64,000 bases of DNA. It comes from Bacteroidales bacterium. GTDB lineage: Bacteria > Bacteroidota > Bacteroidia > Bacteroidales > UBA932. The stretch spans positions 20,975 to 84,974 of the forward strand of contig JAFSOA010000010.1 in the NCBI GenBank assembly GCA_017447265.1, given 5' to 3'. The notes beneath the pieces are model-generated. The model saw only the letters and a list, made by a program, of their open reading frames with translations. It did not search any database and was not told the DNA's origin. Positions 23,883 to 50,110 of this stretch are shown here, in pieces. Position numbers and translations under genes: made by a program. How positions within the stretch are numbered: the first letter of the stretch is position 1; each line of letters begins with the position of its first letter.

Positions 23883-23914
23883 TTTGTTTAATTGGAGGAT
23901 TTTAAGTAAATTTG
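23883..23914 (+). promoter_or_regulatory. Promoter of fimbrial operon 1
   Basis: TTTG at 23883-23886 and TAAATTTG at 23907-23914, 20 bases apart: a complete -33/-7 pair. The surrounding 80 bases are much more AT-rich than the rest of the window. Confidence 0.8.
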
Positions 23915-23946
23915 TTTAAATAGTGATACTAGCACCCAGAATGAAC

Positions 23947-24729
23947 ATGAGCCAGTTTCCCTATCCGAAGAAGACAAGATGCCATAAGGCACTGTTAATA
24001 GCGATTTTAGGCTTTTTCAGCACAATCGTTCCCCTGAATACTTTTGCGCAAGAGATCCCTGCGCCCGGGATTGAAGAAGTCCTGACGCAGTTCCTCGGCC
24101 CTCAGGGCCGCACCGGACGTCCCGCCGGCGTCATTCCCCAGCAGGAACCGACGCTCGTGTACCGCCCGAACAACCCGGCGGCCGTGTTCTCCATCCGCAA
24201 CAACCTGGCCTACGATGCCACGGGTACCATGAACCTCTCGGTCGAGTTCGCCCTGGGTCGCCACGCGAGCCTCGGCGGCACCTTCGGCCTGAAGCCCTGG
24301 GACCGCTTCTTCTTCTGGGACCACGACGAAGCCCTCGTCAAGAAATGGCGCCATCTCTCTGTCGTGCCGGAGTTCCGCTACTATCTCAGTGAGGTGAGCC
24401 GGGGCCACTTCTTCGGCGCGAACCTGCTCTGGCTGCACTACAATGCGGCGGGCCTCACCTTCCCGTGGGGGATCTACCCTGATGTGCGTGACCTGCGCCT
24501 GCAGGGCGACCTCTTTGGCGGCGGCCTGTTCTACGGCTATGACTTCCCGTTGGGCAACCACTGGCGCATCGAGGGGCTCCTCGGCGTGGCCGGCGGCTGG
24601 TACAGCGACCAGTCCTTCCGCTGCGAGTCCTGCGGCCAGTCGGTCGGTGCGCGCACCGGCGCCGCCCTCCTGCCGAACGTGGGCGTGAACGTGGTGTACA
24701 CCTTTAACAAAAGAGAGAAAAACAATTGA
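23947..24729 (+). CDS. DUF3575-like outer-membrane protein of fimbrial operon 1
   Basis: A 260-residue secreted protein. The signal region is HKALLIAILGFFSTIVPLNTFAQE. After a short linker comes a barrel-like domain opening NPAAVFSIRNNLAYDATGTMN and ending LLPNVGVNVVYTF, the layout of the DUF3575 proteins I know from Bacteroidota fimbrial loci. A CESC pair sits near the C-terminus. From NPAAVF to NAAGL it is identical over 95 residues to the protein at 37006 while the gene differs at many silent sites. ATG 23947 is chosen because ATGAGC is the shared start in both copies; ATG 23941 is possible. A role in export or outer-membrane assembly of the fimbria is plausible but unproven. Confidence 0.8.
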   Translation: MSQFPYPKKTRCHKALLIAILGFFSTIVPLNTFAQEIPAPGIEEVLTQFLGPQGRTGRPAGVIPQQEPTLVYRPNNPAAVFSIRNNLAYDATGTMNLSVEFALGRHASLGGTFGLKPWDRFFFWDHDEALVKKWRHLSVVPEFRYYLSEVSRGHFFGANLLWLHYNAAGLTFPWGIYPDVRDLRLQGDLFGGGLFYGYDFPLGNHWRIEGLLGVAGGWYSDQSFRCESCGQSVGARTGAALLPNVGVNVVYTFNKREKNN

Positions 24730-24761
24730 GAAACAAATAATAATAACACATCCATTACACC

Positions 24762-27038
24762 ATGAAAAAGTTACTTTTCATCACACTGGGCCTTGCTGCC
24801 ATCTTCGGATTGACGGCATGCGTCGAAAGCAATCCCGGATTCGATCCATCCAAGGTAGACGGACACGAATCTGTGGTTACCAAGTTCTTCCTGAACATTT
24901 CTCCCGGCAGCCAGCCCAGCACCAAGCAGATGCCTGCCGACGTCCAGGCGAACGGCCAGTTCCGCGGCATCGACAATGCCACGATGTTTGCCTTTTCTTT
25001 GAAAAATCCTGACGGAACGCAACGGGATGGCAGCAAGGTCGTCGACAATTCGATTGTGCCCACCCAGATGTACAATCTGTCCACGCTGTTCCCGAAAGGC
25101 ACTTTCGGACCGACCGACAGCGGCAACGAGACGAACAACCGCATGTTCGAGGTATCGCTCCCTTCCGGCACCAATGCCATCATCTTTTATGCCCAGGCCT
25201 ATCGGGAGACCAAGACCAGCACGACCGGCAACCTCGACAACGACGAAGTGTACGGAAAGCTGGAATACGTGGTGGAAGGCGATGGGCGGACGACTGATAT
25301 GACGGCCATCGGCAGCAAGGCAGGATCCCGGCTCAATGAGTCGAACAAGAAGCAATACGTTGTCATGAAAGACATCATTCTGAGTGTCTTCAACCATATC
25401 CTCCGCGTCGGCTTCAATGCAACCGGAGCAGATGCAGGCGGCTGGGACAACGCCGTCGTCGATTCCACATTCGGTTCCTATTCTTTGAAGAATTGGGCGA
25501 TTCACTGGTACGACTACAGGGTGAGCACGGGAGCGACGCCCAAGAGTCCGATTGACAACAATCAACCGGCTTCTGAGATTGAAAGCATTCTGGGTAAGAT
25601 GTATGTGGCGCTTACGACCATCGAAGTCCCGGAAATCCGTTCAGGTGCCGGCAATGCCATCGAACGGCAGATGGCAGACCTGTATTCCGTTTTGGCGGCC
25701 TCTTTGTATTCCGGCGCCAAGAATGACAGGGAGCGGGTCGCCTTGGAAATTATCAAGCAGATTCAAAAGAACATCTTGTATTTCTTCGATCTCAACATCG
25801 AAACCGGTTCGCTGACATGGAAATCAACAACGGATGTAATGACGGCTCTGTCAACGAATTATCACATTTCCATCAGTGGCGCGAAAGCAGATCCTGTCGA
25901 CGTTAGCAATATCAACATTTCCCGTTTCCCCCGCAGCTTCCACATCCCGTTCGGCGGTGCTACGCTGCTTGTCCAGAGACCGGATGGAAAGCCCTATGAC
26001 GAGTATGTCTACAACGACGCAAAGATCAACATGTCCCAGGTCTACTACAACAAGGACACGTCTACTTTCTTTGTCGGTGTAGAAGATTTCACCTATACGC
26101 CGGAGCTCGTCTATTATTGCAATGCGCCGATCCATACGACCGAGGTCGCTCCCACGGTGGCGAATTTCAATGTATCCGTCAACAATTGGCCTCAATTTGA
26201 CAAGTGGGGAGCTGCCGGAACAGGCTGGACGAAGAATTCCCATGTCGAATCTTCTACGCGTGGTGTCGCCCTGGCCAACAATGTCCATTATGGTGTGTCC
26301 CTGCTGAAGTCACAGGTCATCATGGACGTGACGACGCTGAAAGACAACAACTCCGCCATCAATTCCACGCCCGGGAACATCGAACAGGACAAAGATATTC
26401 CAGTAGGCAACAACGCGTATCTGACCTGGACGGGCATTCTGGTGTCGGGCCAGCCCGATAAGGTGGGATGGACCTATATCGCTTTCCCGGAAGCTACGGG
26501 CAAAGGCAGCAAGTTCACCAAGATGGTGTACGATAAGGTCAACTACGTCAACGATGAAGAAGAAGGTTATAAAGTCCCCACAGACAAAAGCAGGACACCG
26601 GAAAACTATACGATCCTGTTCGACAACTACAACCCCAACGTAGCCGATGCGGAGCAGAGTCCCGTGTTCGTCGCCCTGGAGTTCCGCAACGACCTGGGCG
26701 TCGACTTCTGGGGCAACGCCAACCTGGTCCGCCAGGGCGGTACCTTCTACATCATCGGCGTCATGCCGCCGGCGACCCTGGATGACAGCTGGTGGAACGA
26801 CAACAATACGGAATATGACATGCTGCCGCCGTATGACGGTGATGGCAAGACCAGGCACGTCCCTCGTGTATTCATGCAGAACTGCATCACGAACGCCTTG
26901 TTCCACATCGGCGAGAACTCCCTGAAGCGCGCCTTTACCACGGTGCCGGACCTGCGGACCGCGCGCCTGTCGCTGGGCTTGTCGGTCGACCTCAACTGGC
27001 GTTCGGCCGCTTCTTACGATATCCTTCTTGGCCAATAA
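24762..27038 (+). CDS. Major fimbrial subunit (FimA/Mfa1-like fimbrillin), operon 1
   Basis: A 758-residue lipoprotein precursor: MKKLLFITLGLAAIFGLTAC with the lipobox Cys at about 20. The N-terminal domain has the fimbrillin signature (STKQMPADVQANGQFRGIDNATMFAF), including the Lys/Arg-flanked region that proteases cut in Porphyromonas fimbrillins to free the donor-strand groove. The C-terminal end (VPDLRTARLSLGLSVDLNWR) fits a terminal strand donated to the next subunit. It is larger than FimA or Mfa1 (about 380-560 residues), mostly through a central insertion, so identity as the stalk subunit rests on signature and operon position. The AACACATCCATTACACC leader is the same in operon 2. Confidence 0.82.
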   Translation: MKKLLFITLGLAAIFGLTACVESNPGFDPSKVDGHESVVTKFFLNISPGSQPSTKQMPADVQANGQFRGIDNATMFAFSLKNPDGTQRDGSKVVDNSIVPTQMYNLSTLFPKGTFGPTDSGNETNNRMFEVSLPSGTNAIIFYAQAYRETKTSTTGNLDNDEVYGKLEYVVEGDGRTTDMTAIGSKAGSRLNESNKKQYVVMKDIILSVFNHILRVGFNATGADAGGWDNAVVDSTFGSYSLKNWAIHWYDYRVSTGATPKSPIDNNQPASEIESILGKMYVALTTIEVPEIRSGAGNAIERQMADLYSVLAASLYSGAKNDRERVALEIIKQIQKNILYFFDLNIETGSLTWKSTTDVMTALSTNYHISISGAKADPVDVSNINISRFPRSFHIPFGGATLLVQRPDGKPYDEYVYNDAKINMSQVYYNKDTSTFFVGVEDFTYTPELVYYCNAPIHTTEVAPTVANFNVSVNNWPQFDKWGAAGTGWTKNSHVESSTRGVALANNVHYGVSLLKSQVIMDVTTLKDNNSAINSTPGNIEQDKDIPVGNNAYLTWTGILVSGQPDKVGWTYIAFPEATGKGSKFTKMVYDKVNYVNDEEEGYKVPTDKSRTPENYTILFDNYNPNVADAEQSPVFVALEFRNDLGVDFWGNANLVRQGGTFYIIGVMPPATLDDSWWNDNNTEYDMLPPYDGDGKTRHVPRVFMQNCITNALFHIGENSLKRAFTTVPDLRTARLSLGLSVDLNWRSAASYDILLGQ

Positions 27039-27047
27039 GCCTGAAAG

Positions 27048-28184
27048 GTGAACCGGACGTTCCATCTCCGCTTGTGCTGGATCGCGGCAGGCCTGCTCAC
27101 GGCCTTCGCGTTGGGGTCGTGTGCCCTGATCGACGAGCGGCAGAAGGACTGCCCGGAGGAAATGAGCCTGACCTGCACGGTGAACCTGGTCAGCAACAAG
27201 GAAGAAGAAATGAACGACAAGCTCGGTACGCTGCATGACCTGCCGCTGCGGGCCGCCCTCGAGGACTATCTTTCGGATGTCTTCGTGAGCAGCACGCGCG
27301 ACGTGGACATGCTGTTCTACGACCAGCGCAAACGGGGCAAGATGACCTTCCGCGAATCAGAAGTAATGGATGCGGAGCAGAGGGTCTTCTCGCTGCAGGT
27401 GCCGGCGTCGGACTACCGCGTGGCGGGCGTATCGAACCTGACGGCGGTGCCGGTGCTGTCGTTGCAGGACGAAGAGGACGGCTATGCCCTGGCACTGACG
27501 CACAAAACATCCAGGAGCGTCGTCCCGTCCCATCCCTCGGCCGTCTATGCGGCCCGCCAGCGCATGCTGGTGCGGGACCGGGGCGATCAGACGTTCGGCA
27601 TACAGTTCCATATGGCCAATGCCGCTGCGGCGCTGGCGCTGAACTGCGACTCATGCGAAGTCCGGAACCTCCGGGCGACGTTCACCGGCCTGGCCGATTC
27701 GTTCCGGATCCTCGACAGCGCCTATTCCTTCGACCAGCATATCGTCATGGAGGCGGACGTCATCGACGCCCGGCCGTATGTCGACGACAGCGAAGAAGCC
27801 GAGCGTTTCATTTACGACACGTTCTGGGAGCGCTGGACGAAACTGCCGCTCATGGTCTGCACGGTGGGTTTCCCCAGCCCGAACGTGGGTTCCGCGGTGA
27901 TCGGCACCTATCCGATCGTCTGGACGATCGAGTTGTATGTGACCCTGGCCGACGGTTCGACGACGCGCAGCGACATCTACATCGGCCGCCCGCTCGAAGC
28001 AGGGAGGCTGATGATCATCAAAGGCTGGCTCACGGAGAATGGCGGTTTCATGGCTACGCCGCCGCACCCGCCGTATGTCCCGCCGCCGCCCGTCGATCCG
28101 GACCAGCCGGCCGACTCGACGGTCGTGGGCGTCAGCGTCGTGCTCAACTGGAATAACGCTGGTAACTATAACCCTTATTTATAA
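27048..28184 (+). CDS. Mfa2/FimB-like fimbrial anchor lipoprotein, operon 1
   Basis: A 378-residue lipoprotein (lipobox ALGSC at about residues 21-25) with a mature start CALIDERQKDCPEEMSLTCTVNLV. This is the form of the Mfa2/FimB anchors that end fimbrial growth and tether the stalk to the outer membrane. Two beta-sandwich domains are likely (MLFYDQRKRGKMTF, LPLMVCTVGFPSPNVGSAVIGTYPIVWTI). The C-terminus has a Pro-rich segment before a final strand (VVGVSVVLNW). The start is GTG, as in the operon 2 copy, nine bases after the fimbrillin stop. Codons for FRESEVMDAEQRVFSLQVP and their surroundings are nucleotide-identical to the gene at 40144. Confidence 0.85.
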   Translation: MNRTFHLRLCWIAAGLLTAFALGSCALIDERQKDCPEEMSLTCTVNLVSNKEEEMNDKLGTLHDLPLRAALEDYLSDVFVSSTRDVDMLFYDQRKRGKMTFRESEVMDAEQRVFSLQVPASDYRVAGVSNLTAVPVLSLQDEEDGYALALTHKTSRSVVPSHPSAVYAARQRMLVRDRGDQTFGIQFHMANAAAALALNCDSCEVRNLRATFTGLADSFRILDSAYSFDQHIVMEADVIDARPYVDDSEEAERFIYDTFWERWTKLPLMVCTVGFPSPNVGSAVIGTYPIVWTIELYVTLADGSTTRSDIYIGRPLEAGRLMIIKGWLTENGGFMATPPHPPYVPPPPVDPDQPADSTVVGVSVVLNWNNAGNYNPYL

Positions 28185-28198
28185 TTAGTTAGTTTAAT

Positions 28199-30031
28199 AT
28201 GTCAAGTCGTTTCACCCTCCGCCGCTTCATGCTGGCCACCGTCTTTCTGGCGCTGGTCACGGCGGGGTGTGTGGAACCATTTCATCCGTTCGGCCCCGGA
28301 GAAGGCGGCGCGGGCTATCTGCCCATCGAGGTCTACCTGCCCGACATACCGGCCAGGACCAAGGCGTCCGGGGGCTTGGTCACTTCCCGCGAGATGGAGT
28401 CGTCCCTGTACGACCTGCAGATATGGGCGTTTACCCACCAGGCGCCGAATGCGACAGCCAACGACTATGAAGGTGCCGTGGCTTACATGTGCCTGCCGGC
28501 CATCAGCAGCTCGGAGACCCTTACCGGTATCCTGACGGTCTCCCTGCGTATCCCGGACTACGTGATGTCCCGGCCCGATTCGCTGCTGAAGTTCGATTTC
28601 TACGTGCTGGGCAACGGCAGTTCCGTGGGCTTTGACCTGGCCAGCGAGGCGACGGCCCGGCTGACGCGCGGCGACCTCAAGAACAAGGTCTTCGGCGACA
28701 GCGACGGCAGCGGCTTCGGCGGCAGCATCGTGACGGCGGTGCCCGACGGCCGGATGGAAGGCCGTGGCAAGGGTCTTCCGATGACCAGTTTCTTCAACAA
28801 CGGCGGCGAAGGCTTCGATCTGTCGTTCCTGAAGTACGACTTCACGACCGACCAGATGACCTATGTCAAGAATCACCATGGCCATCCGTACGACGCGGAC
28901 GATCCCGATTTCCTGGCCCTGGGCCTGAGCAGCGGGCAGAAGAGCTACCTGCTGGGCCACTGCGTGGTGGCCGGTGTCTGGAACTGGTTCCGTCTTTCGC
29001 CTTCCGTCCAGCTGACCCGCGCGGTGAGCAAGCTGCGCTTCGTCTTCGCCAAGAGCCAGGGCATGACGGAAACCCAGATCACCTCGGTCGAACTCATCGA
29101 CTATACCGACGAGTCGGGCGTCATTCCGACCCAGAGCTACCTCTTTGCGCGCGAGGCGGAGCCGCTGAACGGCATCGCCCTGCCTGTCAGCAGCTATGAG
29201 CCTGTCACCATGGGCTCGGAGCGACTTCCGCTCCTGCTCGACGACGACATCAAGGAGGATCCCAACCCCGTTCGTCTGAGCGGTTCAAGCACCATCGTGG
29301 ACCCGTATTTCGGGCAGCCTTCCTCGATGAACGCGCAGCAGTACGACGCATTCCTGACCAACTGGATTGGCGACTCCACGAAGACGGAAAAACTGCTCTA
29401 TTTGCGGGAGACCGACAAGCCCATCAAGGGGCGGATTCACTACAAGCTCGGGGAATCGCGTGGGACCGCCACGTTCAACATGCTCGGCGTGGGGGCGGAA
29501 AACCTCTGCCGCAATTGCACCTGGACGGTGTTCGCCTATTATTCAAGCGACCCGCGCCGCCTCGAGGTGGAGACCTTTGTCCTGCCCTGGGACGACAAGG
29601 TGGGCGGCAGCACCGGTATCCTGGAATCCGTGAACGTAGATCAGGACGGCAAGCTCCTCGTGGATCCCAACACCGCGACAGTTGACCATTTCGTGGTGCA
29701 GGTGCCCTCCCTGCCCGACGCGGCCATCGCCCGCGTCGTCATCTACAGCCCGGAGGGCGGGCAGTTGCTCGTCAATCCCAAGGGCGACGCAGATGCCTTC
29801 GACATCCGGATTGTCGACAAGGACGGGAACAGCCCGGCCGGCGTCGACCAGATCAACCGCAACCGGGACGGCGGCAAGATGTATATCCGCGTGGCCCGCT
29901 CTTCCGATCCGGGCAAGGCGGTATCCGGCAAATCCATGCAACTGTCCTTCCGCATCAAGCTGCCCGGCGGGCGGATCATCAGCGCGGATTCGGAACTGAT
30001 TGACGATAACTACACCTTTGTGATACCCTAG
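28199..30031 (+). CDS. Accessory fimbrial lipoprotein, operon 1
   Basis: A 610-residue lipoprotein (RRFMLATVFLALVTAGC lipobox). The mature N-terminus VEPFHPFG and the LPDIPARTKASGG stretch, with basic residues before the first domain, are the form of fimbrillin-family subunits that need proteolytic activation. Conserved features shared with the gene at 41312 are SLYDLQIWAFTH, IPDYVMSRPDSLLKFDFYVLGNG, LLYLRETDKPIKGRIHY, and the C-terminal ISADSELIDDNYTFVIP. It sits where Porphyromonas operons encode minor shaft or tip subunits (FimC-E, Mfa3-5), but I cannot assign it to one of these. The start is ATG 28199, 14 bases after the anchor gene. Confidence 0.75.
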   Translation: MSSRFTLRRFMLATVFLALVTAGCVEPFHPFGPGEGGAGYLPIEVYLPDIPARTKASGGLVTSREMESSLYDLQIWAFTHQAPNATANDYEGAVAYMCLPAISSSETLTGILTVSLRIPDYVMSRPDSLLKFDFYVLGNGSSVGFDLASEATARLTRGDLKNKVFGDSDGSGFGGSIVTAVPDGRMEGRGKGLPMTSFFNNGGEGFDLSFLKYDFTTDQMTYVKNHHGHPYDADDPDFLALGLSSGQKSYLLGHCVVAGVWNWFRLSPSVQLTRAVSKLRFVFAKSQGMTETQITSVELIDYTDESGVIPTQSYLFAREAEPLNGIALPVSSYEPVTMGSERLPLLLDDDIKEDPNPVRLSGSSTIVDPYFGQPSSMNAQQYDAFLTNWIGDSTKTEKLLYLRETDKPIKGRIHYKLGESRGTATFNMLGVGAENLCRNCTWTVFAYYSSDPRRLEVETFVLPWDDKVGGSTGILESVNVDQDGKLLVDPNTATVDHFVVQVPSLPDAAIARVVIYSPEGGQLLVNPKGDADAFDIRIVDKDGNSPAGVDQINRNRDGGKMYIRVARSSDPGKAVSGKSMQLSFRIKLPGGRIISADSELIDDNYTFVIP

Positions 30032-30033
30032 TC

Positions 30034-32616
30034 ATGAAGAAAAGGATCTTCCATAGTCTGATCGGTCTGGTCGCCTGCCTGCTGTGCGGCTGTGTCGAGC
30101 CTGTGCTGCCCGACACGGGCCGCGGCATCGCGCTGACCGTCGTCTGCGAAGATCCTGTCCGGACGAAGGCGCCGGTGTCGGGTGTGGACAATTACAACGA
30201 AAACCTCATCTCCTGGGTGGACTTCTTCTTCTATCCCGGTGAGAACCCCACGGGTCCGGCGGTGCTGCACAGCCGCGTCACGTCGGGCGAGCGCTCCGAG
30301 GCGGAATTCAAGATCAAGATCTCCCAGGGAGACGCTTACCGCCTGTTCCCGCTTTCCCCCGATACGCGCAAGGCGACGGTCCTGGCCGTGGTCAACTGCC
30401 CCCATACGCTGGTCGTGGACGAGAACGACCTCTCCGGCACGGACCTGGCCACCCTGTATGCCGAAGTGATCGAGAGTGATTTCACCGCTCCCGCCAATCA
30501 CAAGCAGACGCATTTCATGATGAGCGGCACGACGGTGCTGGACCTCAGTCCGGAAGGCCGTGAGACGGAACTGGTCACTTCGGGACGCCTCGATGTCAGG
30601 CGCTACGCCGGCAAACTGACCGTGTCGGTCCATCTGGTCGATACCGTCACCCTCAATACCTACGAGAAGTGGCATCCGATGCTCGAAGAGATGGAGGTCT
30701 ATCTGGAGAACGGCGTCAAGACGGTGAAACTGTCGGGCAAGGACGACGCCCCGCATTATTTCAGCTTCTCGAACAACCGCAAGCGTTTTGCCTACAGGGA
30801 TCCGCAGACCGATTCGGTGGATATCTTCTTCCTGCCGACCACGATCGGCGACAAGCTGTACTACAACACCTATCCGATGTACATGTATCCGCAGTCGTGG
30901 GAGGAAGGCTCCGACGACCGGGCGGCCGGCCTGTGTGAGCCGGACCTGAAAGTGATCGTTCCGTGGTACTGCGACCCGGACGATGAGCACGGCGTGGTCT
31001 CCAACCAGAAGCAATGCTATTACAAAGTGTTGATGCCCGAAAACTTCCAGTCGGAGTTCCGGAGAAACTACTGGTATCACCTCGACATCGATATCGAGAT
31101 CCTGGGTGCGCTGAGCGGGGAGAATGCCGTCCCCATTTCCTCCGGGTCCTGCTTCATCGTGCCCTGGCAGAACCAGTCACAGGCCATCAGCCACGAGTCC
31201 AGCGTCGGCAAGGCCCGCTACCTGTCGGTGAACCGCGACTCGCTCCTGCTGCAGAATGTCAACAGCGTGCGCATCCCGTATCTCACGAGCCATCCGGCCG
31301 TCATCAAGCCGGGCTCCATCCGCATGACGCGGCCGTACTATGGCGAGAAGACCTCGGGAAAACTGGGTGACGGCACGATCAGGCAGGTCACGGCCGACGG
31401 TGACATCTATCCGAAGGGTTCCTATTACCTCGACTATGACGGCGCGCCTTTCTTCAACAGCAAGGAGGACATCCAGCAGACCTCGACCGTTGTCCTGACG
31501 CACCCGCTCAACAATGACTATACGGACCCGGCCTTCGACTACTCGCCGTATACCATTTCCTTCACCCTGGTCCACGAAGACAAGCAGGACGGCGGCAGCA
31601 TCGAGCGCCCGGTCGTGATCGTGCAGTATCCGGGCATCTATATCGACCGGCATACGAACTCCGACGCCAGCACGGTCGGCGGCACGACGCCGGTCTATAC
31701 TTCGACGCAGCATTACAACCTGCCCTCCGTCTACTGGGGCTATACCTTTGTGGACGGTGCCTATAAACCCGACGATGCCGAAGGAACGAAGTTCACCTTC
31801 TATCCGGGCAAGCAGCAGGCCCGCAAGAGCAACGGGTCCAGCGATCCCTACAATCGCCTGACGGACGATAACGACAAGAAGGACTTTCAATGGCGCACCG
31901 TCTGGTATACGGGTGGCAGCCCCGACCTCTACCAGATCCACATCACAGTGCTCGACAACAGCGATTTCAGTATCGGCGACCCGCGCATGAGCACGATCGA
32001 CAACCTGGACTATTCCTATAATGAGGATCATTCGGTGGCGGACTCCAGGCTCGGCAGCCGCGGCGGCTTTGCCGTCGCCTCGTCCCTCCATCCGGAAGAT
32101 GACGGTCAACAGACGCGCGAGCTCCGCTATTACCACCCGACGGATGCTTCCCACCGCACGCTCAACATGCTGGCGCCCAGTTACCGGGTCTCGTCGAAGT
32201 TCAGCGGCGTGGAATACGGCAAGATCGATCTCGAGCATGCCCGCTACCGCTGTGCGTCCTTCCAGGAAGACGGTTTCCCGGCCGGACGCTGGCGCCTGCC
32301 CACCCGCGGCGAAGTCCGCTTCATCGCCCAGCTGTCGGCCAACGGCATCTTCACCGTCCTTTTCAACAACAACGACACCTACTGGTCGGCCAACGGCGCC
32401 ATCAGGATTTCAGGGCACACCGTCGTGGATTCTTCCGAACCGACAGCCTTGCTGCGCTGCGTGTACGACACCTGGTACTGGGGCGAAGACCAGAAAGAAT
32501 ACGATGACTGGCGCAGGAAGGATCCCGAATGGCTCGCCTTGCCGGACGGCGACGAGCCCTACCAGAAAAACAAGGAATTACGCAATAAATTCGTATGGGG
32601 GGACCGACCGCGATGA
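30034..32616 (+). CDS. Large accessory fimbrial lipoprotein with probable lectin/FGE-like C-terminal domain, operon 1
   Basis: An 860-residue lipoprotein (SLIGLVACLLCGC). The N-terminal third is fimbrillin-like (ALTVVCEDPVRTKAPVSG, then ENLISWVDFFFYP). The middle is beta-rich, with internal YDAYSPYTI-like strands. The C-terminal ~150 residues have the look of the sulfatase-modifying-factor/C-type-lectin-like fold used in bacterial lectins: ARYRCASFQEDGFPAGRWRL, PTRGEVRFIAQL, NDTYWSANGAI, LLRCVYDTWYWGED. The end FVWGDRPR is kept exactly in the operon 2 copy. It starts two bases after the previous stop and overlaps the next gene by ATGA, so translation is probably coupled. A tip-adhesin role is inferred; the fold needs structural confirmation. 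Confidence 0.72.
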   Translation: MKKRIFHSLIGLVACLLCGCVEPVLPDTGRGIALTVVCEDPVRTKAPVSGVDNYNENLISWVDFFFYPGENPTGPAVLHSRVTSGERSEAEFKIKISQGDAYRLFPLSPDTRKATVLAVVNCPHTLVVDENDLSGTDLATLYAEVIESDFTAPANHKQTHFMMSGTTVLDLSPEGRETELVTSGRLDVRRYAGKLTVSVHLVDTVTLNTYEKWHPMLEEMEVYLENGVKTVKLSGKDDAPHYFSFSNNRKRFAYRDPQTDSVDIFFLPTTIGDKLYYNTYPMYMYPQSWEEGSDDRAAGLCEPDLKVIVPWYCDPDDEHGVVSNQKQCYYKVLMPENFQSEFRRNYWYHLDIDIEILGALSGENAVPISSGSCFIVPWQNQSQAISHESSVGKARYLSVNRDSLLLQNVNSVRIPYLTSHPAVIKPGSIRMTRPYYGEKTSGKLGDGTIRQVTADGDIYPKGSYYLDYDGAPFFNSKEDIQQTSTVVLTHPLNNDYTDPAFDYSPYTISFTLVHEDKQDGGSIERPVVIVQYPGIYIDRHTNSDASTVGGTTPVYTSTQHYNLPSVYWGYTFVDGAYKPDDAEGTKFTFYPGKQQARKSNGSSDPYNRLTDDNDKKDFQWRTVWYTGGSPDLYQIHITVLDNSDFSIGDPRMSTIDNLDYSYNEDHSVADSRLGSRGGFAVASSLHPEDDGQQTRELRYYHPTDASHRTLNMLAPSYRVSSKFSGVEYGKIDLEHARYRCASFQEDGFPAGRWRLPTRGEVRFIAQLSANGIFTVLFNNNDTYWSANGAIRISGHTVVDSSEPTALLRCVYDTWYWGEDQKEYDDWRRKDPEWLALPDGDEPYQKNKELRNKFVWGDRPR

Positions 32617-36836: not shown

Positions 36837-36871
36837 TTCCTCGCGGTGAAGAATCATTGTAAATAGCTGTG

Positions 36872-36906: not shown

Positions 36907-36908
36907 CC

Positions 36909-37785: not shown

Positions 37786-37821
37786 CAAGAAATCAATATC
37801 AATCAACACATCCATTACACC

Positions 37822-40131: not shown

Positions 40132-40143
40132 AGCTGTTTTGGG

Positions 40144-41295: not shown

Positions 41296-41311
41296 CCCTT
41301 TGTTTGTATCC

Positions 41312-43192
41312 ATGACGAGAAGTTCCCATATCCTGCCTGTTTTGCTGGCGATGCTGCTGATGGCACTTGCCGGGGCGGGGTGTGTGGAACCGCTTTGGAC
41401 CGAGGACAAGCACAATAGAAAAGGGGTTGAACTCCCGCTGCAGATTTATCTGCCGACCCGTGTCAACACGGCCACGAAAGCCATTTCCGACGGACCGGTG
41501 GATGGCCTGGCCGCGGAATCAGCACTCTATTCCCTGCAAGTATGGGCCTTTTCCCATCCGGACAAGTCGGAGCAGGCGATGTCCGAAGCAGAATTAGCGC
41601 TGTTCCAGCAAGAGAGTTCCATCGCCTATCTGAACGTGCCCGATGTCAACGTGCTGTCCTCGTCGGGTGCAGGTTCGAGCATTCAGGTGGGCCTGCTCAT
41701 CCCGGATTATGTCCTTTCGCGGTCGGATGATGCCTTGAAACTGGATTTCTATGTGTTGGGGAACGGCGCATCCATCGGATTGGGGGATGTCGGCGTCAAG
41801 AAAAGGAGCGAGATGCGCGATTTGGTATTTGAGGGCAACTATTTTGGGGTCAATGCCACCCGTTCTTCCGAGATTCCGGCCACCGGCCTTCCCCTGGCCT
41901 GTTTCTTCGACAACCGCGGAAATGGCTATGACATCGCTTTCTTGAAGACCGATCCGAATCCGACGGAAGCGCGCATGGAAGAAATGGGCCGCGTCTGGCC
42001 GGAGATGGAACTGACGCGCTCGGTCGCGCGCATGCGTTTTCTCTTCGCCCAGGCCACGGGCATGACGGGCAATGCCATCGACAGCGTTGTGCTGTTCAAT
42101 TTCGATGACCTCGACGAACCGGGCCTGATTCCTACGGGAACCTACGTCTTTCCCCGGGAAGACGCCAGTGCCATCAAGCTGCCGGAGGGCAGTGCTTACG
42201 AAACGCTGAGCTGGGGTTCGTATTACTCCGGACTGGAAGAGAACATCGGACAGATGGACGATCCCACGATCCTGTGCAGCAACAGCGAAGTGATGCGGAA
42301 TATGTCGGCACAATTCTTTGAAGACTATCTCCAGCAGTTATTTGCGCAAGCAGGCAACCAGAACAAGCCGACATCGAAAGTCCTCTATCTGCGGGAAAGC
42401 GACAAGCCGATCAAAGGCAGGATCTATTACAATGGCCAGCGGGATAACGAAGACCAGATTGTCAAGCCCTCCCAGAGCGTGGAATTCACCATGGCCGGCC
42501 TGGGCTTTCCCGACAGGACCAATTTCTACCGCAATCACTCCTGGACGGTCTATGCCTATATGATCGGGCAGCACATGGAGGTCGACGTGCGGCTGGACGA
42601 TTGGGTGGTTCCCTGGACCCGGCAGGAGGTCAACCTCATGGATACGGTCATGGTCAATGTGGACCAGGACGGCAAGTTTATCACGGACGCCACGATGCAG
42701 GCCGACAGCTTGCGCTATTACAATGGAAATGTCATTCCGAAAAGCAATGGCAAGCCCAGGAAGAAATGGTTCAACGTGCCGATTCCGGAAGGGGATGAGG
42801 GCGTTACGGGGCGCGTGGTTATCTATGCGCCGCAAAACGGAAAGTTGATCGTTACGCCCGTAGCGGTCGATACGGCCGAGTTCTGGCCCAAGCTGTCAGC
42901 GTCAGAAAAGGGTGTTTATGAAGCAGATCCATCGGATCCTTCGTATGTAACGAAGTGGTTCGACATTTCCATGACCACGAATGTGATCGACCGCCGTGTC
43001 GATGAAGGCAGCGGCATCCCGGGTTTGATCGGCATTACGGTCAAGCGAAAGAATCCGGCGCCCGGAACACAGAGCGGGAGAAAGGCGATCAAACTCTCGT
43101 TTGAAATTGAAGTGATGGAAAACGGTCAGCCCCGGAGAATCAGTGCTGATTCTGAGTTGATCGACGATGAATACCATTTTATCATCCCATGA
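41312..43192 (+). CDS. Accessory fimbrial lipoprotein, operon 2
   Basis: A 626-residue paralogue of the product at 28199. ATG 41312 gives the signal MTRSSHILPVLLAMLLMALAGAGC; a TTG four codons upstream is less likely. Shared blocks include ALYSLQVWAFSHPD, IPDYVLSRSDDALKLDFYVLG, VARMRFLFAQATGMT, VLYLRESDKPIKGRIYY, VNVDQDGKF, and the end ISADSELIDDEYHFIIP. The loops between blocks differ in length and sequence. Copy 1 carries an insert of about 30 residues near its residue 220 that is missing here. A minor or tip-proximal fimbrial subunit is the likely role. Confidence 0.75.
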   Translation: MTRSSHILPVLLAMLLMALAGAGCVEPLWTEDKHNRKGVELPLQIYLPTRVNTATKAISDGPVDGLAAESALYSLQVWAFSHPDKSEQAMSEAELALFQQESSIAYLNVPDVNVLSSSGAGSSIQVGLLIPDYVLSRSDDALKLDFYVLGNGASIGLGDVGVKKRSEMRDLVFEGNYFGVNATRSSEIPATGLPLACFFDNRGNGYDIAFLKTDPNPTEARMEEMGRVWPEMELTRSVARMRFLFAQATGMTGNAIDSVVLFNFDDLDEPGLIPTGTYVFPREDASAIKLPEGSAYETLSWGSYYSGLEENIGQMDDPTILCSNSEVMRNMSAQFFEDYLQQLFAQAGNQNKPTSKVLYLRESDKPIKGRIYYNGQRDNEDQIVKPSQSVEFTMAGLGFPDRTNFYRNHSWTVYAYMIGQHMEVDVRLDDWVVPWTRQEVNLMDTVMVNVDQDGKFITDATMQADSLRYYNGNVIPKSNGKPRKKWFNVPIPEGDEGVTGRVVIYAPQNGKLIVTPVAVDTAEFWPKLSASEKGVYEADPSDPSYVTKWFDISMTTNVIDRRVDEGSGIPGLIGITVKRKNPAPGTQSGRKAIKLSFEIEVMENGQPRRISADSELIDDEYHFIIP

Positions 43193-43196
43193 TGCC

Positions 43197-45710
43197 ATGA
43201 GAAGCGTGCGTATCCTTATCCTCTGCCTGGCAGCGGTCCTGCTGACCGCCTGCGTCGAGGTGCTGTCGCCCCCGGTGCAGCCAGCGGGTACGGGCATCGC
43301 CCTGACGCTGGTTTGCGAGGATGCCGTCAGGACGAAGGCGGAGAGTACGGAGCCGGGCGTGCGCAGCTACCATGAGAACCTCATCTCCTGGGTTGATTTC
43401 TACTTTTTCTCCGGTAAGATACCGTCGGAAAATCCGGCTGCGTGGAAAGATACCTCGGCTGCCAGGCTGCACTACCGCCTGTCTTCCGGCGAACAGAACG
43501 AAGCTTCTTTCCAGATGAACCTTTCGGCGACGTCCATCGGGCAGTTGTTCCCGACCAGCGGGGAAGGGAAAGACAAGATGACGGTGCTGGCCATTGCCAA
43601 TTATCCGGGAAGCTCGATTCCCGCCTCTTCAAGCACGCCGACCTTCGCCCAGTTGGAGGCATTGGCGGTCAGCGCAGATTTCGTCGCTCCGGCAGATCAT
43701 CGGCAAACCCATTTTATGATGCGGGGCGTCAAGGTGCTGGACCTGATCGGACGGAGTGCCGATCTGGTTTGCCAGGACACCGTCCGGCTCGAGCGCTATG
43801 CCAGCAAGATGACCGTCGCGGTGAGGGTGCAGGACACCGTCCAACTAGCCGAACATGAAGTATGGCGGCCCATGCTCGACGGCATGGTCGTCTATCTGGA
43901 AGACGGCGTGAACACCGTCCGCCTGGGCGGCCGGGACAGTGTTGCCGCTGACATGGAGTATTTCTCCTATTACGACAACTGGCTCCGCTTCGTGTCCAAA
44001 GACCGTCAGGGCAACTATTCTCCCATCATCGGCAAGAGCCAGGACGGATATTACGAGACTTACCCCATGTATATGTATCCCCAGCGCTGGGAACCCGGTT
44101 CCGGTGTGGCGCCGACGAAGGAGCCTGACCTGAAGCTGATTATTCCCTGGTATCGCGAGGAATACCATGATGAGGTGAACCACATCGACATTTCTTCCAC
44201 CCAGAAGCAATGCTACTATAAGGTCATGATGCCGGCGGATTTCGGGAAGCAGTTCCTGTCCAACCGCTGGTATCATCTGGGCCTGGATGTCAAAATCCTG
44301 GGCGCCCTGACCGAAGAGACGCCGGTGACGATCACGGGCTCCAGCCATATCGTGTACTGGCAGGACCGCGATGTGGTGGTCCGGCAGGCTGAGGTGGGCA
44401 GTGCCCGCTACCTGTCCGTCGACAAGGAGACCTGGGAAATATACAACCAGAATGAACTGGATATCGCTTATTTGTCCAGCCATCCGCTGGTGCTCGACAG
44501 CATTACCGTGACGCGGCCCTACTACGGCAGCGCAGCGGCCGGTACGCCGACCCTGGGCGGTGTCGTGATCGATTCGACGGCAGGTACCAAGTATCTGAAG
44601 TACGATGCATCTTACTACGGCAGTTGGCTGCATGACAGCGGCACGGAGATCGAGTTCCGTCATACGCTCAACAACAACTACCAGGATGCCTTGTTCGACT
44701 ATTCGCCCTACACGATTACTTTCCGCATCCGGCATGTCGACAACGACGAGTACCAGCAGACCGTGAAGATCATCCAGTATCCGGCCATCTACATCAGCCG
44801 GATCCGGAACTCCGACCCGGACACGGCGGCGAACCATACAACGAAAGACAATGATCCGGCCGCCTGGTCAAAGTACAACGGTTTCGTCATCGTTGACGGT
44901 GCATGGAAGTATGACGCCGCCCTTGACTCGGTTACCTTTATTCCGGGCAAGCAGCAGAAGCGAGACAATGTACAGGATTCTGTACAAAAAAAGCTGAGCA
45001 CCGCTGAACAGAACGACTACCAATGGCGCGCGGTGCATTATACGGGCGGCAGCATCGACATGTATAACATCCATATTTCCGTGCTTCCGGCCGATTTCAA
45101 GTTCGTCATCGGCGATCCGCGCGTCTCGGAAATTGACAATCTGGGCTATCATTTCTATCCGGGGACGAACGACAAGCATCTGACCCAGCGGCTCGACGAT
45201 TTCTCCTATGCGCCTGCCATGTACGGCGCTGGAAGAAGGACACTCGCATACTATTACCCGACGGAAGCGTCCGAACGGACCCGGAATATGCTGGCGCCCA
45301 GTTACCGCGTCTGTTCCAAGTTCGGCGGCGTCGAGTTTGGCAAGGTTACCCTCGAATATGCCCGCTATCGCTGTGCCGCGTACCAGGAAGACGGTTTCCC
45401 GGCCGGCCGCTGGCGGGTCCCGACCCAGGCCGAAGTGAGCTTTATCGCCCAGCTGTCGGCCAATGGCACTTTCGATGTTCTCTTCAATCTTAACCAGATC
45501 TATTGGTCGGCCAATAGTGCCGTTCAGGTTAAAGAGAATGGAGTCGTTACAGCGGTACCAGACGGAAAGGCCTTGCTCCGCTGTGTCTACGACACCTGGT
45601 ATTGGGGTGAAGATCAGAGTGAGTATGAAGCTTGGCGCAAGAGGTACGATCCGGTTGTTCCTGGAGAGTTCCCGCATGATGTTTTTGTTTGGGGAGATCG
45701 TCCGCGATGA
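43197..45710 (+). CDS. Large accessory fimbrial lipoprotein with probable lectin/FGE-like C-terminal domain, operon 2
   Basis: An 837-residue paralogue of the product at 30034. ATG 43197, four bases after the previous stop, gives MRSVRILILCLAAVLLTAC. The N-terminal opening (GIALTLVCEDAVRTKAESTE, ENLISWVDFYFFSG) and the C-terminal domain (ARYRCAAYQEDGFPAGRWRV, PTQAEVSFIAQL, QIYWSANSAV, LLRCVYDTWYWGED, FVWGDRPR) closely follow copy 1. The middle is more variable. Conserved Trp, Cys and the RWR(L/V)PT motif support the same lectin- or FGE-like fold in both. It overlaps the next gene by ATGA. Confidence 0.72.
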   Translation: MRSVRILILCLAAVLLTACVEVLSPPVQPAGTGIALTLVCEDAVRTKAESTEPGVRSYHENLISWVDFYFFSGKIPSENPAAWKDTSAARLHYRLSSGEQNEASFQMNLSATSIGQLFPTSGEGKDKMTVLAIANYPGSSIPASSSTPTFAQLEALAVSADFVAPADHRQTHFMMRGVKVLDLIGRSADLVCQDTVRLERYASKMTVAVRVQDTVQLAEHEVWRPMLDGMVVYLEDGVNTVRLGGRDSVAADMEYFSYYDNWLRFVSKDRQGNYSPIIGKSQDGYYETYPMYMYPQRWEPGSGVAPTKEPDLKLIIPWYREEYHDEVNHIDISSTQKQCYYKVMMPADFGKQFLSNRWYHLGLDVKILGALTEETPVTITGSSHIVYWQDRDVVVRQAEVGSARYLSVDKETWEIYNQNELDIAYLSSHPLVLDSITVTRPYYGSAAAGTPTLGGVVIDSTAGTKYLKYDASYYGSWLHDSGTEIEFRHTLNNNYQDALFDYSPYTITFRIRHVDNDEYQQTVKIIQYPAIYISRIRNSDPDTAANHTTKDNDPAAWSKYNGFVIVDGAWKYDAALDSVTFIPGKQQKRDNVQDSVQKKLSTAEQNDYQWRAVHYTGGSIDMYNIHISVLPADFKFVIGDPRVSEIDNLGYHFYPGTNDKHLTQRLDDFSYAPAMYGAGRRTLAYYYPTEASERTRNMLAPSYRVCSKFGGVEFGKVTLEYARYRCAAYQEDGFPAGRWRVPTQAEVSFIAQLSANGTFDVLFNLNQIYWSANSAVQVKENGVVTAVPDGKALLRCVYDTWYWGEDQSEYEAWRKRYDPVVPGEFPHDVFVWGDRPR

Positions 45711-48700
45711 TGAAGATGATGAAAAAGATAGGATATTGGCTGTTGCTGCTCTTGCTTGTGTTGAGCTGTGTTCCGGAGCTTCCGGTACAGCCGGTTCCGG
45801 TCGATGAGGGCTATCCGGAAGGGGCCAAGGCGACGGTTCACTTCTCCGTAACAGGCGGCGGCTCGATGCCGGGCACCAAAGCACTGGGAGAGAATCCGGA
45901 GCTGGATTCGCTATACCTGGCCGTGTTCGGCAGTTCGGGCTACCTGAAAGAATATGTGAAGGCGACGATTGACCACAAGCCGACCTATCTGGACGCCGAT
46001 ACGATGTTGCGTTTCCATGCCACGCTGACGCTTTCCGACAAGGAGCGCAGTGTCCATTTCATCGGGAACGGCCCTTCGACCCTGGATTTCGGTTATGACA
46101 CGGATATTCTTCCCCAGTTGCTTTCCGCCGGCGGTGGACAGTCTTTCTGGCAGATGAAGAAAAATGTGCTCATCGAGGGTGTCAAGCAGCAGGACGGTTC
46201 TTACCTGCCGACAGACGCGACCAATGCGCAATTCACCGGTATTCCCCTGATCCGGAATTTTTCGAAGATTGTTCTGGTGAACGAAGAGGATTCCAATTTC
46301 ACGCCCGACTCTTTTGCCGTCTTCAGCGTGCCGGCCAAAGGCTCCGTGGTGCCATTCCATGACGGCAAGTTCGTTGAGAATTACCAGGATTTCGGATTCA
46401 CGGAGCTGGCTCAGCAATACCCGGGGAACCTGCCCGATTCTACGGATTTCATGTGGGATGCCGGGGGTTGGGATACCCTCCGGGTGGAGAAAGGCCAGGC
46501 TGTGTATCTGTATGAGCGGCCCGTGCCGACCGATCAGATCCCCCCTACGTACGTGATTATCCATGGTATCTACAACAATCCTGAGGATCAGAATAGTGAG
46601 CATAACAACAAGCCATATTACTACAAGATAGACCTGATGCAGGATGGCGAGTACTATCCGATTCTCCGGAATTTCAAGTATCAGATCAAGATCAACAAGA
46701 TTCTGTCCATCGGGCACACTTCGCCGCAGGCCGCTGCGGCTTCCGCCGGCAGCGCCGACGTTTCAGCCGACATCACGACGAGTCATTTGAGCGATATCTC
46801 CGACGGAGAGGCGCGCCTGGTGGTCCAGCCCTGGATGTCCCAGACCTTCAACAAGCGGCAGGTCAACAACAATCTGCTGCATGTCAAGTTCTTCAGCCGT
46901 GCCTTGAGTGGCGATCCGGAGATGTCGTTCGATGCCGTCCAATGTGAGATACAGCATGTCGACGGGCAGGAGGATATCATTGAGAGCGCCAGCATCGGTT
47001 ATCCCGTGCAGGCTTCCGGCACGGAGAAGGGCTGGCGTACGGTGACGTTTACGACCGTAGAGCCCGGCGCCCCGGGCACGGCGCCCCGGACTCAGGCGCT
47101 CCGCATCAAAGGTACCTACAAGACCGCCAATAATGAAACACGGACGCTGTACCGCGACGTACTCATCACCCTGCAGCCGCTGCAGCAGTTCCAGTTGATT
47201 GTGGAGAGTCCTGACGACACGGGTACGGGCGTTCCCCGCGATACGGCACAGGCCGTTCAGTTGAAAATCGGGATTCCGACCGGTCTGGCGCAGTCGATGT
47301 TCCCGCTCAATCTCACCATCGAGCCGGAAGACATGTCCCTTACCCCCGATAACCAGGTCTCCAACAACAATCTTCCGGTGTCGGCCGGCACCTCGATCTC
47401 CGATCATGCCGATTATGCCGGCAAGCGGGCCTTCCAGTTTATCCGGACGCTGACCTACGATGAATACCTGGCGCTGCCGCAGTCGCTGGACCTGGACGGA
47501 GAGCCTATCCGCACGGTGACGTGCCATTTCAAGACGACCCGCAAAGACAATGCGACGACCATCTGGGTGGCCAACGATTACTTCAGCAAGGCCCGGGTCG
47601 CTTACGCGAACGAACCCGCAGCCCAGCGCCGTTTCTTCTATGTGGAGGCACGGGAAGACAACATCAACAAGGCTGTCGTCAAGTTGTCTTACAGTACGGG
47701 CAAACTTGAATACCAAAAGAACAGTGACGGTTGGTCAAGCTATACCTCGAATTCCGAGCTCCGGCTGAAGCCTGGCGACCGGGTATACTTCCGGGGCAAT
47801 ATCAAGGATTGGAGCGGTGCCGGCAAGTTTTTGGTTGAGGACGGCTATGTCAATGTGGGCGGCAACATCGCGTCGTTGTTCCGGGACAATTTTACCGAGG
47901 ATGATCTGCCCGCGGAGGATTGGGGGGCTGACCAGACGGGCTGGAAATTCCAATCCTTCTTCGAGGAAGAGCCCTACCTGGTGGATGCGTCCCAGTTGAT
48001 CCTTCCGATGAGCACCATGGTGAGTTCAGGCTATCTGTCGATGTTCAAGGGCTGCACAGGGTTGACTGCCGCACCCGCCCTTCCTGCGACTTCGTTGGCT
48101 AGCAATTGCTACCAGTCGATGTTCGAGAACTGCATCGCGTTGACCGAGGCGCCGGCCCTTCCCGCCACCACTCTGTCGGCCAACTGCTACCAGTCCATGT
48201 TCCAGGGCTGCAGACAGCTTACTGCTTCGCCTGTTTTGCGGGCAGATGTCCTGGTTGGCAGTTGCTATTATCAGATGTTTTCCGGCTGCAGCAGCCTGGA
48301 TACGCTCACGATGACCGCAACCAGTATTTCGGCATCTAATTGCTTGAAAGAATGGGTTTCAGGAGTTGCTGCGACGGGTGATTTCTACGGCCATGTGAAA
48401 GCGACGATTCCCGTAGGGGTCAACGGTATCCCTACCGGCTGGCTGAAGCGCAATGAGTTCTATGTTGAGGCTGTAGAAGACGGAACGGTATCGTTTAGTG
48501 GTACCGGTTTGCAGTACTCCAAGAACTGGGAGGAATGGACGAGCGACGGCATCTCTTCGATAACCGTGGCTGCCGGCGACATTGTCCGCTTCAGAGGCGT
48601 CCGTAGCGACGGTACGATTTCTTCTACCGGAAACTTCAACGTGGCCGGAAACATCTTAAGCCTGGCCGCAGAGAATTACCCTTCCGTAACGACCGGTTCC

Positions 48701-50110
48701 TTTACGGGTATCTTCAAGGACGCCACGAAACTGGTTTCCGCCGGCGACCTGGTTCTCCCGACCACTTTGCAGGCCAACTGCTTCAAGGAGATGTTCTCCG
48801 GCTGCTCTTCTTTGACGACGCCTCCGGCCCTTAAGGCCACGACGCTAGCCGAAAGTTGCTACGAGTCGATGTTCTCCAGCTGTTCCTCCTTGAGATCTTC
48901 TCCGAACCTTCCGGCCGAAACCCTGGTGGACAATTGCTATAAGCAGATGTTTTCGGGTTGTACTCAGCTGAATTTTGTGATCTTGTCCGCTACAGGCGAT
49001 ATTACAGAAAATAATTACACATACAACTGGCTTGAGAATGTGGCTGGCAGCGGTTTCATGCTTAAATCCAGAGATCTGGTCCTGAATATAAGCGACAACA
49101 GCGGTGTTCCTCCCGGCTGGAGTCCGGAGGCTCCGTTCTTCGTCGAGGCCAGGGCGGCGACATGTAAAGTAAAGATTAACAAGGCTGATGTGCGATACAA
49201 CATAGATGGCTCCGGCTGGTATGATTACACCCAAAATGCTGAGGTTTCTCTATCTCAGGGCCAGAAGATGTTTATACAGGCAACTATCAACGACTGGTCC
49301 GGCAAACCCGTGACCATCACCGGTAATTTCGCCATTGGCGGCAGCCTCGCTTCCCTGGTCAAGGGTAATTATACCACTACCGCCGAGGCAACTGGTGCGA
49401 CGGGATGGAAATTCACGGAGTTTATGTCTGGTAAGACGAACCTGGTGGACGCCTCTTTGCTTGATTTGCCGATGGCAACAGTTGGAGACAGTGGATATAA
49501 GAGCTTCTTTAACGGTTGTACAAAACTTGTTGACGGCCCTGTCATGATAGCTGCCACGAATTATAACAAAGAAGCCTGCTATCAGATGTTTTACGGTTGT
49601 ATTTCTCTTAAGGCCATTCCTTCTTTCCCTTCAACGGTGACTTTAAGCGGTACAAGTATCTTTTATCAGATGTTCCAGTCGTGTACATCCCTCTCCTCGT
49701 TGACGGAGCCGCTTTTCAACAAAGATGTTCCTTTGGCGAAAGGTTGTTTCCAGGATATGTTTGCTCACTGCACGTCAATTTCGACAATCTGCGATGGTTT
49801 TCTGCCGGCAACCACGCTGGTGGAGGACTGTTACCGTGGCATGTTCCAGCATAATACCAGCCTTGAGCGTGCTCCCTTCCTGCTCGCCCCAACACTGGTT
49901 ACCAACTGCTATCGATATATGTTTTATGGCTGCACGAGCCTTAGCTATATTAAGTGCCTTGGCGCCAACCTTAATAATAACGATAGTTACACCCAGAATT
50001 TCACGACGGGAGTGTCTTCCAGCGGAACCTTTGTCAAGAAGGCGGGTGTAACCAAATGGTTAACCGGTAATAACGGCATTCCTTCCGGCTGGACAGTTAC
50101 AGAAGAATAG
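45707..50110 (+). CDS. Giant BspA-type LRR fimbrial tip lipoprotein, operon 2
   Basis: A 1467-residue paralogue of the product at 32613 (MMKMMKKIGYWLLLLLLVLSC). The fimbrillin-like N-terminus (MPGTKALGENPELDSLYLAVFG, GSSGYLKEYVKA) and RLVVQPWMSQTF are shared. Modules start near residues 642, 916 and 1143, each with the FFYVEA / LQYSKNWEEWTS / GGNIASL beta-domain followed by CYxxMFxxC LRRs (CYQSMFENCIAL, CYESMFSSCSSL, CYRYMFYGCTSL). The third LRR block has six units against three in copy 1, so repeat number has changed by gain or loss. Codon use is less GC-rich towards the 3' end (49000-50100). The end is GNNGIPSGWTVTEE. Confidence 0.85.
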   Translation: MMKMMKKIGYWLLLLLLVLSCVPELPVQPVPVDEGYPEGAKATVHFSVTGGGSMPGTKALGENPELDSLYLAVFGSSGYLKEYVKATIDHKPTYLDADTMLRFHATLTLSDKERSVHFIGNGPSTLDFGYDTDILPQLLSAGGGQSFWQMKKNVLIEGVKQQDGSYLPTDATNAQFTGIPLIRNFSKIVLVNEEDSNFTPDSFAVFSVPAKGSVVPFHDGKFVENYQDFGFTELAQQYPGNLPDSTDFMWDAGGWDTLRVEKGQAVYLYERPVPTDQIPPTYVIIHGIYNNPEDQNSEHNNKPYYYKIDLMQDGEYYPILRNFKYQIKINKILSIGHTSPQAAAASAGSADVSADITTSHLSDISDGEARLVVQPWMSQTFNKRQVNNNLLHVKFFSRALSGDPEMSFDAVQCEIQHVDGQEDIIESASIGYPVQASGTEKGWRTVTFTTVEPGAPGTAPRTQALRIKGTYKTANNETRTLYRDVLITLQPLQQFQLIVESPDDTGTGVPRDTAQAVQLKIGIPTGLAQSMFPLNLTIEPEDMSLTPDNQVSNNNLPVSAGTSISDHADYAGKRAFQFIRTLTYDEYLALPQSLDLDGEPIRTVTCHFKTTRKDNATTIWVANDYFSKARVAYANEPAAQRRFFYVEAREDNINKAVVKLSYSTGKLEYQKNSDGWSSYTSNSELRLKPGDRVYFRGNIKDWSGAGKFLVEDGYVNVGGNIASLFRDNFTEDDLPAEDWGADQTGWKFQSFFEEEPYLVDASQLILPMSTMVSSGYLSMFKGCTGLTAAPALPATSLASNCYQSMFENCIALTEAPALPATTLSANCYQSMFQGCRQLTASPVLRADVLVGSCYYQMFSGCSSLDTLTMTATSISASNCLKEWVSGVAATGDFYGHVKATIPVGVNGIPTGWLKRNEFYVEAVEDGTVSFSGTGLQYSKNWEEWTSDGISSITVAAGDIVRFRGVRSDGTISSTGNFNVAGNILSLAAENYPSVTTGSFTGIFKDATKLVSAGDLVLPTTLQANCFKEMFSGCSSLTTPPALKATTLAESCYESMFSSCSSLRSSPNLPAETLVDNCYKQMFSGCTQLNFVILSATGDITENNYTYNWLENVAGSGFMLKSRDLVLNISDNSGVPPGWSPEAPFFVEARAATCKVKINKADVRYNIDGSGWYDYTQNAEVSLSQGQKMFIQATINDWSGKPVTITGNFAIGGSLASLVKGNYTTTAEATGATGWKFTEFMSGKTNLVDASLLDLPMATVGDSGYKSFFNGCTKLVDGPVMIAATNYNKEACYQMFYGCISLKAIPSFPSTVTLSGTSIFYQMFQSCTSLSSLTEPLFNKDVPLAKGCFQDMFAHCTSISTICDGFLPATTLVEDCYRGMFQHNTSLERAPFLLAPTLVTNCYRYMFYGCTSLSYIKCLGANLNNNDSYTQNFTTGVSSSGTFVKKAGVTKWLTGNNGIPSGWTVTEE

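Follow-up and report, generated by a model that had tools for sequence, protein, structure and literature searches.

A probable type V pilus locus with two tandem, apparently mosaic operons in a Bacteroidales genome

The closest described systems are the fim and mfa pilus clusters of Porphyromonas gingivalis. The fimA gene is found in single copy (PMC3436787), and fimA alleles are exchanged through natural competence (PMC3953592). Both the fimA types and the fimCDE types represent divergent alleles, and these undergo recombination between strains; FimD and FimE share less than 43% identity between types, and the 5′ portion of fimC displays more than 96% (PMC5266723). In the mfa cluster, Mfa1, Mfa3 and Mfa4 are matured by signal peptidase II and then by Rgp cleavage, and Mfa2 is the anchor and terminator (PMC5954841). 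Variation in mfa2 tracks the mfa1 genotype (PMC8313007). DUF3575 proteins are reported alongside fimbriae, with no function given in the available portion of the source (PMC10434189). A search of titles and abstract openings, covering few subscription journals, found no description of a tandem or anchor-homogenised type V locus.

The locus described here is in the metagenome-assembled genome (MAG) of an uncultured Bacteroidales bacterium from the gut, which comprises 2.13 Mb in 19 contigs and is 78.7% complete. The 64 000-nucleotide stretch analysed, termed the window, is positions 20975–84974 of contig C9 of this genome. Two six-gene operons, with genes A-B-C-D-E-F, lie head to tail on the same strand at 23923–36836 and 37006–50110, and the 169-nt intergene (36837–37005) contains no gene. 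Gene sizes are closely matched, with 268 and 259 aa (operons 1 and 2, respectively) for A, 758 and 769 for B, 378 and 383 for C, 610 and 630 for D, 860 and 847 for E, and 1413 and 1473 for F. A 22-nt overlap of E and F is present in both blocks. The first-pass annotation described two tandem blocks of matching architecture, and this is borne out by the 12 open reading frames and by the alignment of the blocks in register. Of the 20 direct-repeat families in 20000–54000, 17 are two-copy repeats of 40–300 nt, spaced 13.02–13.20 kb apart. Amino acid identities between the operons are 76% for A, 38% for B, 77% for C, 41% for D, 51% for E and 45% for F, and global alignment scores of all six pairs are 43–102 SD above those of shuffled sequences. 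An assembly artefact, which the annotation had named as the finding that would undo its reading of the second block, is unlikely, because a single sequence entered twice in the assembly would not give copies this divergent, and the same pair is found in the same order in another MAG, G026.

All genes are on the plus strand. Gene A encodes a DUF3575 outer-membrane barrel (A1, 23923–24729; A2, 37006–37785), with PF12099 scores of 132 bits (E 1.4e-38) and 137 bits (E 7.5e-40) against a Pfam gathering cut-off of 21.1. The mechanical A1 reading frame starts with GTG, and the ATG at 23941 is the likelier start. Gene B encodes a lipoprotein (B1, 24762–27038; B2, 37822–40131) that is a probable stalk subunit, based on operon position and on its signals, a lipobox and a T[KR] dipeptide. 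The B family profile has no credible match in Pfam, NCBIfam or the PDB; the best NCBIfam match, PG1828_fam_lipo (E 0.0033, 2 of 12 members), was taken as chance. Gene C (C1, 27048–28184; C2, 40144–41295) encodes a probable Mfa2/FimB-like anchor lipoprotein. The Mfa2 matches are at the family level and sub-threshold: four of 12 members match at E ≤ 0.01 (best 4.9e-4), C1 is not among them, and C2 (E 9.2e-4) reaches 19.3 bits, below the cut-off of 21.2.

Gene D (D1, 28199–30031; D2, 41300–43192) occupies the FimC position and encodes a probable adaptor with the T[KR] dipeptide. In the D family, three of 11 members match the FimD model and one of 11 the Mfa1 model; D1 itself matches neither. Gene E encodes the FimD-type tip protein (E1, 30034–32616; E2, 43167–45710), and both copies exceed the cut-off of the NCBIfam equivalog model for the FimD tip adhesin (NF052322, 289 and 288.6 bits, cut-off 170). 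Gene F encodes a giant leucine-rich repeat (LRR) lipoprotein, a probable outermost tip adhesin (F1, 32595–36836; F2, 45689–50110). The BspA-type repeat model (PF13306, LRR_5) is reached in both, at 27.7 bits in F1, which equals the cut-off, and at 38.8 bits (E 1e-9) in three stretches of F2; a Fimbrillin_C match is sub-threshold. PDB searches with the E1, B1 and F1 sequences and the C, D, F and B profiles gave nothing or chance-level matches, save the LRR protein 4fs7 (E 0.03–0.04).

The T[KR] dipeptide is found at aa 40–70 in 34 of 35 members of the B, D, E and F families, with about 6 expected, and in none of 12 members of the anchor family, with 1.5 expected. In the single member without it, the reading frame begins past the lipobox region. 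This distribution fits the published maturation by signal peptidase II and then Rgp, as well as the role of Mfa2 as anchor. The source genome has a gene for a C11 (clostripain-type) protease, which could, as a guess, be the trimming enzyme. The earlier assignment to FimA/Mfa-type operons is thus upheld by the FimD scores of E and by the trimming dipeptide in the subunits and not in the anchors, and the placement of a DUF3575 gene first and an LRR lipoprotein last agrees with the family matches.

Each operon has its own promoter-like element, as judged by sequence scan. Operon 1 has the element TAAATTTG followed by a 13-nt motif, GTGATACTAGCAC (23907–23935, plus strand), and operon 2 has TAACTTTG followed by GTAATACTAGTAC (36965–36992, plus strand). 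The sequence TAnnTTTG, which we take to be the Bacteroidetes −7 element, precedes A1 and, in the intergene, A2. It is found less than 140 nt from 10 of 13 operon or gene starts examined, a raw count without a chance expectation; two G036 operons and that of G029 do not display it within this distance. Just 3′ of the promoter-like element is the near-palindromic motif GTRATACTAGYAC, at 23923–23935 and 36980–36992. The motif is exact behind TAnnTTTG in both window operons and in operon 1 of G026, and has two mismatches in operon 2 of G026 and one in G001. The remaining one- and two-mismatch matches are elsewhere, as expected of so loose a scan. The window contains two copies of the motif half RATACTAGYAC, with 0.00 expected. 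In 40 same-genus genomes the pattern TTTG-N(5-9)-RATACTAGYAC has three matches, all at these operons, and a reversed control has none; operon 1 of the window is missed by this pattern because its spacing is 10. A hairpin scan shows a hairpin followed by T residues between the operons (36872–36903, plus strand), which was not flagged by a consensus terminator scan of the intergene (scan total 1, with 0.4 expected, no excess over chance). An invertible promoter was also considered and set aside: inverted repeats near both operon starts are short, and neither promoter-like element lies between a pair of them in the manner of a switch.

Homologues of C1 are found in eight of 61 genomes, all of the same genus, and the anchor profile has matches in 17 of 249 genomes of the family, representing four of 25 genera; both counts include the source genome. 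FimD-model matches above the cut-off are present in 18 of the 40 same-genus genomes, again with the source genome included. Only three of these 40, the source genome (G000), G026 and G036, have at least two FimD-type genes on one contig, all of them next to an anchor gene of their own; in G015 and G034, two above-cut-off FimD matches lie on different contigs. The same three are the only genomes of the 249 with more than one anchor gene; where G112, G149 and G239 give doubled anchor rows, these are fragments of a single reading frame in each case. Accordingly, the multi-operon arrangement is rare (3 of 40 same-genus genomes, and 3 of 249 in the family by anchor count), with the qualification that MAGs are incomplete and a missing A or further copies may be apparent only. 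In another genus of the family, G153 has two FimD-type genes 5.5 kb apart with one anchor-family gene nearby (G153:C2:87788-101647). The source genome has a second locus, G000:C15:100007-110684 (L030), with a DUF3575 gene, three weak FimD-model matches and a 1372-aa lipoprotein-like open reading frame; weak matches of this kind recur in many same-genus genomes.

The first-pass annotation knew of no described system of this exact composition. This does not hold with respect to relatives: the gene set recurs in the same genus, and the comparison of one versus two copies that the annotation had proposed shows mostly single copies, with two in G026 and three in G036. The single-copy operons of G001, G023, G029, G015 and G006 have the gene families of the window in one copy rather than two, with an extra B-like gene in G023, G029, G006 and G015 and a different gene order in G023. 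LRR_5 is found in none of five F-position homologues scanned, that of G029 being partial; two of these have sub-threshold Fimbrillin_C matches, one has Big_2, one has a sub-threshold FimA match and one has no match. The loci of the window, G023 and G036 occupy a common site: genes for a tricorn-type S41 peptidase and a beta-eliminating lyase lie to one side of it and genes for IMPDH and a rotamase to the other, with flanking genes of 85–94% amino acid identity. G001 and G006 have the left neighbours of the window. The beta-eliminating lyase gene of the window (22727–23752) adjoins operon 1 and is oriented opposite to that of G026, G001 and G023, where it is co-directional with the operon.

In G036 a single contig carries three operons, of which one is inverted. 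This region (G036:C41:48250-92984, L024-L026) also contains an orphan fourth B, an IS66 element and a gene for an archaeal-type ATPase, and a tyrosine recombinase gene adjoins the outermost operon. The locus has a single DUF3575 gene for the three operons, and the G026 locus has one for two. DUF3575 genes, one or more, are found elsewhere in all five genomes tested; a barrel could thus be supplied by a different locus as well.

The six genes differ in how far the two operons have diverged. At fourfold sites C1 and C2 are 76% identical (115 of 152; chance 41%), and A1 and A2 64% (chance 44%). The values for B, D, E and F are 40, 40, 53 and 42%, respectively, with chance at 31–40%; D2 was taken from 41318, two residues past the likely Met, here as well as in the trees and in the fourfold comparison with G026. 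When only well-aligned stretches are compared, C is still above each of B, D, E and F (Fisher p 0.004, 0.007, 2e-4 and 2e-8). In G036 the three anchors display 92.5–95% amino acid identity versus 36–45% for B and D, and at fourfold sites 66–73% versus 20–44% for B, D, E and F (chance 24–31%). The anchors of the window lineage and the G036 lineage are 47% identical to each other, and thus the likeness of anchors arose inside each lineage.

Gene trees were compared by the AU test. The C and A trees place the two operons as sisters, with alternatives at p ≤ 4e-6 for C and ≤ 0.001 for A. For D and E combined, sister operons are rejected (p 0.003) and a grouping of operon 1 with G001 is favoured; the result is weak when either D (p 0.015) or E (p 0.043, with KH and SH not significant) is tested by itself. 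B is undecided between topologies and allows sister operons. F favours sister operons without rejecting operon 1 with G001, and in its tree G023 groups oddly with operon 2 (support 87). The trees were made without G015, the F tree without the F of G036, and neither E nor F is present on the G006 contig. For G001 B and G023 C the frame was shortened to an internal Met, which drops an upstream extension, and the G029 B frame starts late. Together, fourfold sites and tree tests give the anchors a younger common ancestor than D and E. Gene conversion and the import of divergent stalk and tip alleles would both fit the anchor likeness; no conversion tract could be delimited inside C, in a comparison made without the G001 B row (out of frame, 31 stops).

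The closest relative of the locus is in G026, a red-deer MAG (contig CAJODQ010000017.1) that has both operons in the same order. Fourfold identity to G026 is 91–94% for B1–F1, versus 74–79% for the four genes to the left and 72–78% for operon 2 (A2–E2). The block B1–F1 (24746–36857, unstranded) is therefore nearly identical to that of G026 and is a probable exchange tract. Beyond its right border, in the intergene, identity drops to 76%. On the left, the border coincides with A1, a gene absent from G026, and the lyase gene beyond is 89% identical in nucleotide sequence. Operon 1 of G026 has the 13-nt motif 81 nt before B. Operon 2 of G026 extends from C17 onto contig C31; the two contigs have a 99-nt overlap, and C31 runs on to the IMPDH region. 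Two shorter tracts (both unstranded) are found in operon 2 by windowed identity: one across E2/F2 (44500–45863), 97.6–100% identical to G026, and one in F2 (46864–47863), 98.8–99.6% identical, both amid sequence mostly at 82–94%. The LRR part of F2 falls to 58–77% in several windows. Operon 1 (B1–F1) was probably exchanged between species recently. Homologous exchange is the simplest reading of the near-identical tracts, and chimeric MAG joins may also produce them.

How the pair of operons arose can be asked of these same data. If all six genes had been copied once in an old block duplication, B, D, E and F would simply evolve faster as parts that face hosts or other microbes, and rapid evolution is indeed expected of pilus stalk and tip genes. 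Gene order and junctions are equal in both operons, the F tree supports sister operons best and the B tree allows them. Yet fourfold sites differ as well, with C at 76% and B, D, E and F at 40–53%, also in well-aligned stretches; D and E reject the sister tree; and G036 has the same anchor pattern independently. We consider a single duplication unlikely, although it is the foremost of the competing accounts. Accordingly, the plain two-copy block of the earlier description stands as to genes, order and junctions, and fails as a simple duplication, since the gene trees conflict and operon 1 was apparently exchanged between species recently.

The likeness of operon 1 to G026 might reflect slow evolution or an assembly join instead of exchange. 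Both genomes are MAGs, and the left border shows no clean drop in identity, as it coincides with the absence of A1 from G026. However, five adjacent genes stand at 91–94% at fourfold sites next to four left genes and an operon 2 at 72–79%, contigs are continuous in both MAGs, and operon 2 has two more near-identical tracts; this account is improbable. Slightly less probable again is that the products of the operons are lipoprotein complexes on the surface, with a role in binding or feeding, and not polymerised pili. The long B proteins without a family match (758–769 aa) and the giant LRR lipoprotein F would suit such complexes, but E is FimD by an equivalog model above its cut-off, and the trimming dipeptide is present and absent as expected of subunits and anchor.

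The reading we favour, with reasonable though not full confidence, is that of a chromosomal type V (FimA/Mfa1-like) pilus locus of two mosaic operons, in which stalk and tip genes have diverged, the base has stayed alike and tracts have been exchanged between species. Judged by the trees and identity tracts, the operons are shown to be mosaics. In kind the locus is a known one, a rare, mosaic, multi-copy form of the type V pilus locus. The pili here are known from genes, and the assembly mechanism is modelled on the P. gingivalis literature. Following the known pathway, B, D, E and F would reach the surface as lipoproteins, and A would be an outer-membrane barrel that helps display them. A trypsin-like protease would trim these four at T[KR], about 25–40 residues past the lipid cysteine. 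The trimmed subunits would polymerise by strand exchange into a pilus with stalk B, adaptor D, tip E and outermost LRR adhesin F, and C, left untrimmed, would keep its lipid and hold the pilus base. Gene conversion, or import of divergent stalk and tip alleles around a common base, would account for operons that are alike in anchor and barrel and differ in stalk and tip, and homologous recombination probably moved a whole operon and shorter tracts between species.

One lineage is thus likely able to make two pili that differ in stalk and tip and have near-interchangeable bases. The annotation's suggestion of different stalks and tips accords with the divergence of B, D, E and F (38–51% versus 76–77% for A and C), and its suggestion of shared export or anchoring parts is consistent with one DUF3575 gene per multi-operon locus in G036 and G026 and with the within-genome likeness of the anchors. 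That the barrel is shared and the anchors interchangeable is plausible. Perhaps, and this is a tentative proposal, the locus is a system for diversity within a genome, where one DUF3575 barrel and concertedly evolving, interchangeable anchors form a universal base for traded stalk and tip modules. If so, a cell could display two or three pilus types, or hybrids, with its assembly site unchanged. Two lineages with different anchors each have similar anchors inside a genome, and it becomes testable which pilus parts are common to all pili of a cell (anchor and barrel) and which are traded modules (stalk and tip).

The locus resembles the P. gingivalis fim cluster (fimX, pgmA, fimA–fimE) in combining a probable stalk and a probable anchor gene with three accessory genes in a single operon, as well as in its FimD-type tip. 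In P. gingivalis the alternative stalks and tips are alleles in different strains that vary around conserved parts, whereas here the alternatives coexist in tandem, as two to three whole operons in one genome. Further differences from the fim cluster are the likeness of anchors inside a genome, the DUF3575 gene at the head of the operon and the LRR giant at its end. A probable stalk, a probable anchor and tip proteins are likewise shared with the mfa cluster (mfa1–mfa5), as is arginine-protease trimming, which is represented here by the motif. Mfa5 has a von Willebrand domain, and F has LRRs. Lastly, mfa2 follows the mfa1 genotype, whereas the anchors of the present locus do not follow their stalks.
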